NCBI GenBank assembly: GCA_025358315.1
Contig: JANYKA010000085.1
Span: 1 to 37,280, forward strand
DNA: 37,280 nucleotides
Source: Gemmatimonadota bacterium
GTDB taxonomy: Bacteria > Gemmatimonadota > Gemmatimonadetes > Gemmatimonadales > Gemmatimonadaceae
Direction of reading: 5' to 3'
Shown here: piece after piece, positions 1,075-3,732 of the stretch
How positions within the stretch are numbered: the stretch's first letter is position 1
Layout: the number at the start of each line of letters is the position of its first letter
Position numbers and translations under genes: made by a program
The notes under the pieces: generated by a model
The model's database searches: none
Seen by the model: the letters and a program-made list of their open reading frames with translations, nothing else
What the model was told of the DNA's origin: nothing

Positions 1075-3258
1075 CTACGGCCGGGGCGCTTCGCCCTGGC
1101 CGTGGGTTTTGGAATCGTGCTCGATTTCTTTTTCGAGTGAATCCACACGATCCTGCAATCGCCGCGCCGTGGCCTGAAGTTCCGTGAGCCGTTCCGCCAG
1201 CTCCGGTGGGATGGATTCACCGGAGTACTCGGCATCCTCGTCACGCGGATCCACGGCCGCTGGCGCGAGCGTACACCAGAGCGCAAATAGCAGTAGCGCC
1301 AGCAATATTCCCTGAAGCGTCAGCGTTTCGACGGTCGGGTAGATGCCGAAAAACTCGATGTGAGGAAAGCCGGGAATAAGCGTTTGGGAAACAATATTCC
1401 CTTCCTGCAACTCTTTCAATCCCTTGCCGGCAAAGATGAACGCCATCGTATAGAGCAGCGCGCTGGTCACAGCAAAGAATGGACGCAACGGAATCTTGAC
1501 GCCAAAGCGATAGAACAGTGAGAAAATCACCGCCAGTGCGGCGCCACCAACGAGCAGCCCCATCGCCACCGGCATAATATTGTGTGATCCGCGAGTGAAG
1601 AGCGCCTGATAGAACAGCGCCGTTTCGGCGCCCTCACGGAATACGGCAAGAAAAGCGACAAAGCCAAGGGCAAATCGCCCACCGTGGGACAATGCGGCGT
1701 TTACCTTCTCGCGAATAAATTTCTGCCACTGGGCGGCCTCAACTTTGGAGAGCAACCAATAGCTCACCGAAAAGAGCACGACCACGGCAATCATCATGGT
1801 GGCGCCTTCGATGACATCCTGCGATGCCGGAACAGCGGCCAGCACAGTGCGCAGGAAGAACGCAAGCACCGCGCTGGCGGCGAGGCCGCCGACGACGCCC
1901 CACCAGATGTCGCGCAGCCGGGCGCGATTCCCGGTTTTGATCAGAAATGCTACGACAGCTCCGACCACGAGAATCGCTTCGAAACCTTCGCGAAGAATGA
2001 TCAGCAACGACTCGAGAAACACGCCCCAGCCCGTAGAATCAGGAATCTGAAGTTCGAGAATGGCGGGCATTCCCTGCTCGATGCGGTTGCGTTGCATTTC
2101 TGCGGCGGCGAGATCGTTGGCTTTCACCGCGCCCTTGAAATCAGCGAAGTGCCTCTCCATTCCCGCGACGAGCCCCGGATCGCGCATGCGGGCCGGTCCT
2201 TCCAGCGGCTCAAAAGCGATGTAGGCATCAAAGGCGAGATCGCCTGCTTCTGACTTTTTTCCCGATCGGGCCGCCGCGAGCGCGTCGTCGATCAGGCGTA
2301 CGACGTGGCGGGCGACTGTCCGCGTATCCAGCGAGTCGCCGGCATTCGCGTTGGCACTGCCTGCAATCGTGAGCACGGGCGCAGCGCGCAGCGAGGCAAC
2401 GGCGTCGCTGCGTTCCGCATCACTGAGCTTGGCGCCGTCAGAAATTCCCGTCAGCGGATCGCCGGCAGCAATCGCCGCAGCAATGGCATCGTCACTTTGT
2501 TCCGCCTGCCAAGCCACACTCTTGGAACGCGGCGGCGTGGCCGACGCGCACGACGCACAGTGCGCCCCAAGTACCGACGCGCCGCGGGCCCGCGATTGAT
2601 CGGTCGCACGAAGGGAATTTACGAACGCGACCAGTGCCCAACGGTCGTCGATGCTCAGCACCGACGCCCACGCGGACATCATCGTCCCCTGCACGCCGAC
2701 GGAGATCACTCGGAACACGTGTGCGGGGGATACGCTATGCATGTGTGCGACACTGCCAATCGGCTCCGGGCGCGGAGTAAACTCCCGCGACCGGGCCCCA
2801 TCGCCGGCACCGGTTGCGCCATGACACGCTGCGCAACTCTGCGCAAATAATTGCTGACCGCGTAGCAGGTCGGGGATACGGCTAGGCAGATCGAGCGCCC
2901 CTTCGGCTCCCAATGCTTCGGCAAACTTTTTGCTCAGAGCGGTGAGTTCGCCCGGCTTTGCGTGTCGGGCTGCAGCCGCCGAGAGCGAGTCGAGTATGAG
3001 ACGCGCGGCCGTCGCATTGGGCGTATCAAGTCGCAATGCCACATCTTTCGCATCGCGCAAGAATCCGGCAGCCTCGTCCAGTTCAGAGGCGGCAATAATT
3101 CGGCCATTGGCATCGATACCTTTGGCATACTCCTCCACGGCGACGCTGACAATAGCAGCCAGCCGTTTTGCCGGCGGCTCCTGCTGGCCTCCAAACAGCG
3201 GCGTGGCAGCAAACAGAACGACGGGGATGTATCGGTTGAGAATCATTCTCAAAAGCAT
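1075..3258 (-). CDS. Cytochrome c / FTR1-family iron permease fusion
   Basis: The 727-residue protein has a hydrophobic N-terminal signal (about 1-24), a periplasmic region with one class I cytochrome c site (CAACH, C142/C145/H146, with Met193/194 as possible axial ligands), and a C-terminal FTR1 permease of about seven membrane segments. The two FTR1 iron-binding REXXE motifs are visible as REGFE at 423-427 and REGAE at 541-545. FTR1 proteins import ferric iron coupled to ferrous oxidation; the haem domain may pass electrons. A second cytochrome-like segment has C234-A-S-C237 followed by Ala, so its haem histidine is missing. A charged coiled coil of about 40 residues ends the protein. ATG at 3258 has no Shine-Dalgarno; an in-frame ATG at 3246 is the alternative. 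A Fur-box-like palindrome overlaps both. It is the only gene of its transcription unit. Confidence 0.88.
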   Translation of the reverse strand: MLLRMILNRYIPVVLFAATPLFGGQQEPPAKRLAAIVSVAVEEYAKGIDANGRIIAASELDEAAGFLRDAKDVALRLDTPNATAARLILDSLSAAAARHAKPGELTALSKKFAEALGAEGALDLPSRIPDLLRGQQLFAQSCAACHGATGAGDGARSREFTPRPEPIGSVAHMHSVSPAHVFRVISVGVQGTMMSAWASVLSIDDRWALVAFVNSLRATDQSRARGASVLGAHCASCASATPPRSKSVAWQAEQSDDAIAAAIAAGDPLTGISDGAKLSDAERSDAVASLRAAPVLTIAGSANANAGDSLDTRTVARHVVRLIDDALAAARSGKKSEAGDLAFDAYIAFEPLEGPARMRDPGLVAGMERHFADFKGAVKANDLAAAEMQRNRIEQGMPAILELQIPDSTGWGVFLESLLIILREGFEAILVVGAVVAFLIKTGNRARLRDIWWGVVGGLAASAVLAFFLRTVLAAVPASQDVIEGATMMIAVVVLFSVSYWLLSKVEAAQWQKFIREKVNAALSHGGRFALGFVAFLAVFREGAETALFYQALFTRGSHNIMPVAMGLLVGGAALAVIFSLFYRFGVKIPLRPFFAVTSALLYTMAFIFAGKGLKELQEGNIVSQTLIPGFPHIEFFGIYPTVETLTLQGILLALLLFALWCTLAPAAVDPRDEDAEYSGESIPPELAERLTELQATARRLQDRVDSLEKEIEHDSKTHGQGEAPRP
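1077..1110 (+). terminator. Probable Rho-independent terminator of lgt, inside the 3' end of the convergent gene
   Basis: An 11-bp stem (1077-1087 with 1093-1103, one G-U pair) with a 5-nt loop is followed by GGGTTTT. It starts 9 bp after the lgt stop. The same bases encode the last residues of the permease on the other strand. Confidence 0.55.
3236..3252. promoter_or_regulatory. Fur-box-like palindrome over the start of the iron permease gene
   Basis: The 17-nt sequence TTGAGAATCATTCTCAA is a perfect inverted repeat around one central base. Its core TGAGAAT-C-ATTCTCA matches the 7-1-7 Fur core TGATAAT-N-ATTATCA except at one position in each half. It covers codons 3 to 8 of the FTR1 gene if the start is 3258. 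The match and the gene's role in iron uptake together suggest repression by Fur; binding is inferred. Confidence 0.6.
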
Positions 3259-3345
3259 ATAAAAGTAAGATACTCGGGTTGCGGAGTGCCACGCTACTCC
3301 TCAGCTCGAAATCCGTTGTCTGTTATTGTTTACCGCCAGACAAAC

Positions 3346-3732
3346 TCAAGCATGCCGCTCCAGAACCACCACTGCCGATGCAGTTGTGTCCGTATGGGTC
3401 AGCGATACCCACACACTCGCCACCTCGAGCGCGAGGGCCCGCGCCGCTGCCCGGCCGTGAAACGCCAGGGTCGGAGCGGCATTCTCGTGCGGGATAACTT
3501 CGACCTCGCGCCAGCCTATAAGCCGCGCCTCATCGGATCCGGAGAGTGCCTTGAATGCCGCTTCTTTTGCCGCCAGTCGCGCCGCAAGATGCATGGCCGG
3601 TCGGACCCGTGCCTTGGCATACGCCACTTCATCATCCGTGAACAAACGTTGTAGCATGCGATCGCCTTTCCCGTCGAACATTTTTTCGACGCGGGCGATT
3701 TCAACCAGGTCAATGCCAACGCCGCAAATCAT
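3346..3732 (-). CDS. acpS: Holo-[acyl-carrier-protein] synthase (AcpS)
   Basis: The 128-residue protein has the length and motifs of AcpS, which attaches 4'-phosphopantetheine from CoA to the acyl carrier protein. GVGIDLVEIARVE near the N-terminus carries the magnesium-binding aspartate, and RLAAKEAAFKAL is the second signature (WxxKEAxxKA type) with the catalytic glutamate. The C-terminal VSLTHTD segment matches the usual SxSH strand with Thr in place of the second Ser. The start at 3732 is set by the MICGVGID context and by an ATGA overlap with the stop of the M14 peptidase gene upstream. It is the last gene of the coupled group read from 8586. The frame stays open further upstream, but that extension has no AcpS character. 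Confidence 0.93.
   Translation of the reverse strand: MICGVGIDLVEIARVEKMFDGKGDRMLQRLFTDDEVAYAKARVRPAMHLAARLAAKEAAFKALSGSDEARLIGWREVEVIPHENAAPTLAFHGRAAARALALEVASVWVSLTHTDTTASAVVVLERHA

Follow-up and report, generated by a model that had tools for sequence, protein, structure and literature searches.

A predicted Fur operator within the first codons of a probably leaderless FTR1 iron permease gene in Gemmatimonadota

The FTR1 gene and the palindrome over its start

The window analysed here is the whole stretch of 37,280 nucleotides studied from a Gemmatimonadota bacterium (contig JANYKA010000085.1), and its minus strand encodes a cytochrome c-FTR1 iron permease of 727 aa (1075..3258), the proposed target of regulation. 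Pfam places a cytochrome c domain within residues 131-216 and recovers the FTR1 domain (PF03239) at 102.1 bits, above its cut-off of 25.3, while the EfeU/Ftr1 models of NCBIfam matched the protein only below their cut-offs, among them the EfeU equivalog NF041756. The reading frame opens with the codons ATG CTT TTG AGA ATG ATT CTC AAC, and its translation start is most likely the first ATG (3256..3258, minus strand), since codon 5, a second candidate ATG at 3244-3246, is not ATG in seven of the nine box-bearing orthologues. At one related locus (L021, genome G022) ATA stands at the FTR1 start where the relatives have ATG, with the -10 element and the box intact; a sequencing error, an unusual start or a later start may account for it. 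Upstream lies acpS (holo-ACP synthase; 3346..3732, minus strand), separated from the FTR1 start by a gap of 87 bp and outside the switch discussed below.

Over the first codons of FTR1 lies TTGAGAATCATTCTCAA (3236-3252), a perfect 8-1-8 palindrome that touches codons 3-8 and is regarded here as a predicted Fur box (3236..3252, minus strand; TTGAGAATNATTCTCAA). The canonical 7-1-7 Fur consensus of Proteobacteria and Firmicutes is TGATAATNATTATCA, with which the 15-base core of the box (3237-3251, minus strand) agrees at 12/14 positions, one base differing per half; the runner-up sites for this consensus in the window reach 10/14. The original prediction had described a palindrome perfect around one base, fitting the 7-1-7 core with one change per half and set around both candidate start codons, and each of these features was recovered, the second ATG lying inside the palindrome and the first preceding it by 4 nt. 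Symmetry was rejected as evidence for an operator, being weak evidence because shuffled windows average 0.9 perfect 8-1-8 palindromes (the window holds no other); it is the specific sequence of the palindrome that is significant, not its symmetry alone. No further copy with up to three mismatches was found in the window, where 0.03 would be expected by chance.

Recurrence of the box and its place in the promoter

Protein matches to some part of the 727-aa query were found in 59 of the 61 related genomes, many of the weak ones covering the cytochrome c part only. Among 30 fetched loci (37-87% identity), nine others carry the box at the same projected offset (L005, L008, L010, L018, L024, L026, L028, L030 and L031), and it lies near that offset in L017, L021, L032 and L033. 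The box of L030 is followed by an in-frame stop and therefore lies before the gene. In more distant families the box is again located around the FTR1 gene start, sometimes in diverged form. A smaller, FTR1-only gene with an exact box was also observed outside the panel (L037, genome G053).

The exact core TGAGAAYNRTTCTCA occurs at 62 sites in 47 of 148 family genomes and in 20 of the 61 relatives, two overlapping sets of genomes in each of which the reversed control gave no match. All except two of these sites (60/62) adjoin FTR1, feoA, TonB-receptor, PepSY_TM or HmuY genes. The most frequent neighbour is feoA (25 sites by tblastn, three of them Pfam-checked), followed by FTR1 (15 sites, 8 assigned by locus data and 7 by tblastn), TonB receptors (8 sites by tblastn, two Pfam-checked), PepSY_TM (8 sites, Pfam) and HmuY (4 sites, Pfam). 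Another site stands at the start of an ORF with a CbiX domain (Pfam; L173, genome G089) and possibly links Fur to tetrapyrrole metal insertion, and the last, which falls within an ABC-transporter gene in G146, where no FUR match was found, looks like chance. Together these sites predict the Fur operator and the core Fur regulon of a family of Gemmatimonadetes.

The expectation that similar sites would cluster at iron genes was thus borne out in the relatives but not in the window's own genome, a draft of 283 contigs and 82% completeness, in which FTR1 is the only iron gene with such a site. One other place in this genome lies within three mismatches of the palindrome, inside an unrelated ORF, and a wider Fur regulon was rejected for this genome on that basis. 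The copy (C191:36982-36998, equivalent to L002 1501-1517) has two mismatches and falls in an ORF of 476 aa that appears by eye to be metallo-hydrolase/rhodanese-like; it is probably due to chance.

Upstream of the FTR1 start, a predicted promoter -10 element, TATCTT (3267..3272, minus strand), precedes the ATG by 8 nt and the 15-base core of the box by 15 nt. A TANNNT motif is found 8-9 nt before the ATG in 22 of the 26 loci of family f1 (shuffles: mean 0.8, maximum 5), and 25 of the 26 have no Shine-Dalgarno-like motif. The window gene displays both sequence features by which leaderless genes are recognised, a -10 element at a short fixed distance from the ATG and no Shine-Dalgarno-like motif, the latter in the 20 nt before the ATG; bases 3253-3285 have a GC content of 39%, against 61% for the window. 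The FTR1 mRNA is therefore probably leaderless or bears a very short leader of about 2 nt, and transcription would start at about 3258-3260. These results agree with the original prediction, which had noted the missing Shine-Dalgarno and the AT-rich stretch directly upstream and had proposed a leaderless or very short-leader transcript.

It is conceivable, if rather unlikely, that the gene has an ordinary leader, transcribed from an upstream promoter or as part of an acpS operon, with the internal box serving as a road-block further downstream. The proximity of acpS on the same strand and the four f1 loci (of 26) that lack the 8-9 nt spacing would fit such an arrangement; the near-constant distance of the -10 element from both the ATG and the box, together with the scarcity of Shine-Dalgarno-like motifs, argues against it.

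The same promoter geometry extends to other iron genes. Of 60 oriented sites, 52 have a TANNNT motif at 11-17 nt ahead of the box (shuffles: mean 6.3, maximum 16; the range was fixed after inspection of the sites), with a peak at 13-15 nt. The 60 sites comprise 40 at FTR1, feoA and TonB-receptor genes, 10 hand-oriented sites at PepSY and HmuY genes and, from relatives, 10 FTR1 loci that include three (L005, L018, L100) from outside the family panel; L024, L157, L167, L173 and L197 were left out. At feoA, where strand and start codons were assigned by eye, the gene start appears to follow the box, and at FTR1 it precedes the box, so the operator is probably placed relative to the promoter rather than to the start codon. 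The box is coding at FTR1 presumably only because the leader is missing there.

The FUR-family protein and the reading of the box

A fur gene, which the original prediction presupposed, is indeed represented in the window's own genome by one FUR-family gene (E 4e-30), whose protein contains the block PHHEHLLC..CGKVEEF; the HHEH within it we take to be metal ligands. The closest solved relatives of the protein are Fur proteins (best 2.5e-26), with PerR not far behind, and its scores against the NCBIfam Fur equivalogs miss their cut-offs (96.4 against 220 for NF051892, 90.8 against 146 for NF006999). The protein may function like Fur, though it falls outside the curated Fur groups. An operator read by another member of the FUR family, PerR or Zur, instead of the iron-sensing Fur is a somewhat fainter prospect than the ordinary leader. 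PerR is also among the closest solved relatives (3.8e-23), and the NCBIfam PerR model scores nearly as high as the Fur models, all of them below cut-off; on the other side, iron, haem or TonB-receptor genes are the neighbours of 60 of the 62 sites, and a single FUR-family gene was found in this 82%-complete genome.

The presence of the box at FTR1 follows that of a FUR-family gene. With presence defined by E-value alone (E<=1e-20), a box of at least 13/14 was found near FTR1 in 21 of 29 loci with FUR and in none of the 16 others, the counts being 23/29 and 1/16 for at least 12/14, and 25/29 and 2/16 for at least 11/14; four of 19 fetched loci (L087, L096, L099, L101) were left out, the N-terminal part of FTR1 being missing or unmatched. 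Three genomes (G002, G009, G011) lack a box at FTR1 despite a good FUR match. Their Fur proteins, like that of G014, have HHEQ instead of HHEH (L082, L122, L123, L132); of the four genomes, it is these three that have the FTR1 gene, and loss of a metal ligand would explain, post hoc, the absence of the box from them. In six further proteins (L124-L129; genomes G001, G003, G004, G005, G008 and G010) the HHEH block is lost and the helix-turn-helix stretch is kept. When the loci in the tree are divided by an 'intact Fur' set, drawn by eye from the alignment after the exceptions were known, the box is present at FTR1 in 10/10 f1 loci with intact Fur and in 0/16 without it, and across all tree rows, at a threshold of 12, in 21/24 and 1/19, respectively. 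The tree omits two of the 45 loci (G017, G049) on account of length. After correction for the tree, 3.5 of 5 independent pairs change the same way and none the opposite way (sign test p 0.125-0.5); with the box as the first trait, 3.6 change the same way (p 0.0625-0.25). The co-occurrence is thus partly shared ancestry, and the tree-corrected support is weak and not significant.

At the level of whole genomes, a FUR match of E<=1e-20 is present in 43 of the 47 genomes with an exact box and in 31 of the 101 others, uncorrected for ancestry, and 31 of the 74 family genomes with such a match have no exact box. The exact-box genomes outside this threshold are G067 (3.7e-18), G112 (2.8e-20), and G079 and G146 (no match). 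In genome G079, whose completeness is 99%, a TonB receptor carries an exact box (L162) although no FUR match was found, and this counts against the Fur reading; the gene may have been missed, or another protein may read the box.

That the element acts as RNA, as a hairpin in the 5' part of the mRNA controlling translation or decay, is very improbable. The sequence is self-complementary and lies within the transcript; such a hairpin was nevertheless rejected because it is missing from the fold predicted for the initial 60 nt, and the box tracks the presence of Fur and the spacing from the -10 element and recurs at several unrelated genes.

Across the nine box-bearing genes, the codons that the box spans encode L/M-R-(M/T/I)-(I/V)-(L/I). 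The box arginine is encoded by AGA in 9/9 cases, as against 10 of 529 arginines in the rest of these genes, a comparison that is partly circular because the genes were chosen by the pattern. When the first 12 codons are sorted by Fur status instead, AGA accounts for 9 of 13 arginines in the 10 Fur-intact f1 loci and for 3 of 28 in the remaining 16, L021 having been read from a wrong start so that its box arginine was missed. AGA also stands at codon 5 in two box-less loci (L011, L012). Of the three gene-strand frames over the box, only that of the gene itself yields a signal-peptide-like start, another containing a TGA stop and the remaining one charged or polar residues. The least probable reading of all, a palindrome arising by chance from conserved signal-peptide codons (LRTIL), could draw on the box being read in the same frame in each of the nine orthologues that were examined, on a tendency of gene starts that may favour AT-rich codons and on AGA in three box-less loci, and is opposed by the unequal use of AGA in Fur-intact and other loci and by the same box at feoA and other promoters, where it is apparently non-coding.

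The explanation that best fits these observations, to which we give a probability of roughly 0.87, is that 3236-3252 is a Fur operator overlapping the first codons of an FTR1 permease gene that is probably leaderless, and the sequence evidence supports the original prediction of a Fur-like operator inside this coding sequence. What can be read directly from the DNA is that the site exists, that it recurs in relatives and at further iron genes, that it accompanies an intact fur gene and how it is spaced from the -10 element. The same internal-box arrangement is present in many relatives with a working Fur, and the host is a soil- or water-type bacterium. Polymerase would use the -10 element at 3267-3272 and start at the ATG at 3258 or 1-2 nt before it. 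Fur loaded with Fe2+ would then bind the box at roughly +7 to +23 relative to the A of the ATG, a position suited to blocking polymerase, so that the permease would be made only when iron is short. From the sequences we infer Fur binding, repression and the iron response, as well as the exact transcription start. The operator would lie inside the first codons because transcription seems to begin almost exactly at the start codon: with a near-absent leader, a promoter-proximal operator falls in the coding sequence, and it would double as the codons L-R-M-I-L early in the signal peptide. The locus points to a way in which an operator may be pushed into coding sequence when transcription is leaderless: the operator stays nearly as far from the promoter as elsewhere, and the beginning of the protein adapts to it in the one frame compatible with a signal peptide.

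A second dyad and comparison with known systems

Another dyad, CCCGA-N9-TCGGG, spans the -10 element of FTR1 promoters in many relatives and also occurs in genomes without any FUR match. It was observed at FTR1 of L011, L020, L022 and L025 and at other genes in L168, L183 and L210. At FTR1, matches of at least 8/10 occur at 12 of the 16 loci that lack intact Fur and at 4 of the 10 that have it (Fisher 0.11), so that their excess in the former is a trend only and not significant; single-locus shuffles fall under 0.05 in 9 of the 16, and in L024, one of the four Fur-intact loci with the dyad, it lies off the -10 element. The strict form CCGATANATTNNNTCGG occurs once each in 8 of the 61 genomes, always at the FTR1 start as judged by coordinates. 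With up to three mismatches allowed, CCCGAGTATTNTACTCGGG matched at 36 places, of which 6 are at FTR1, the reversed control giving 29, and sites beyond FTR1 were rejected as being at control level. A longer dyad pattern gave 59 matches, which fall at 53 distinct places and are spread over 45 of the 148 genomes, with 6 for the control. Of 30 dyad places examined, 11 lie just before FTR1, 7 before TonB receptors and 5 before PepSY_TM, and 7 are near none of the genes tried; among the neighbour queries five TonB and two PepSY were Pfam-checked, all five TonB queries coming from the same loci. By eye, similar dyads stand upstream of the Fur box in PepSY/HmuY promoters (L168, L169, L183). The FTR1 promoter of the window has a possible left half, CCCGAG (3273..3278, minus strand), where relatives have the complete dyad; no complete dyad was found in it, the best match being 7/10 at another position (p 0.18).

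A DtxR-family gene was rejected as the reader of the dyad, being present in 59 of the 61 relatives and not found in the window's genome; its distribution is uninformative because so many relatives have it. Rrf2 genes likewise occur in 59 of the 61, and no perfect dyad was found near the 20 Rrf2 loci examined (best 9/10), giving no auto-regulatory link. There is about an even chance that a second operator, approximately AATCCCGAT-N5-7-ATCGGGATT, serves iron-uptake genes, lying over the -10 element at FTR1 and further upstream at PepSY, HmuY and TonB genes, that its reader is possibly of an Fe-S (Rrf2/IscR-like) or DtxR type, and that it took over FTR1 where Fur was deleted or metal-blind and the internal box lost. 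In its core length and outer half-sites the dyad resembles the IscR type 1 operator ATASYYGACTRWWWYAGTCRRSTAT, and it differs in having GAT/GAG rather than GACT, going by the matching passages of PMC3899308. The joint absence of Fur ligands and box, with the second dyad on the same promoter, would make the rewiring of this iron circuit directly testable.

The predicted box resembles canonical Fur boxes in its 7-1-7 symmetry, its agreement at 12/14 positions and its presence at the promoters of feoA, TonB-receptor and iron-permease genes. In contrast to them, its halves are GAGAA/TTCTC rather than GATAA/TTATC, and it is placed downstream of the -10 element and, at FTR1, within coding sequence. 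In E. coli, the ferrous iron permease of the EfeU-FTR1 type (efeUOB) is regulated by Fur. The window gene shares with permeases of this type an FTR1 domain above the Pfam cut-off and the Fur control proposed here, whereas a cytochrome c domain precedes its FTR1 domain and its score against the EfeU model is 127.2 bits against a cut-off of 255.

Among the matches listed in a literature search that covered few subscription journals and included the retrieved passages of PMC10783764, PMC5397173, PMC5243855 and PMC6034842, no paper dealt with Fur operators inside leaderless genes or with a Fur regulon of Gemmatimonadetes. Leaderless genes of Deinococcus and other high-GC bacteria likewise have TANNNT shortly before the ATG, according to passages of PMC3160421 and PMC12340547, in the main texts of which the term Gemmatimonad- is absent. 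The passages of the latter describe regulator motifs near the -10 element (DdrO) and mention no internal operator. The nearest precedent found is Zur of Corynebacterium glutamicum, whose target genes are described in excerpts of PMC2823685 as leaderless, with a motif that overlaps the core promoter. The two systems would have in common an operator of the FUR family and a promoter whose start is the A of the ATG; unlike the Zur motif, the predicted operator of the FTR1 gene lies downstream, within codons 3-8.
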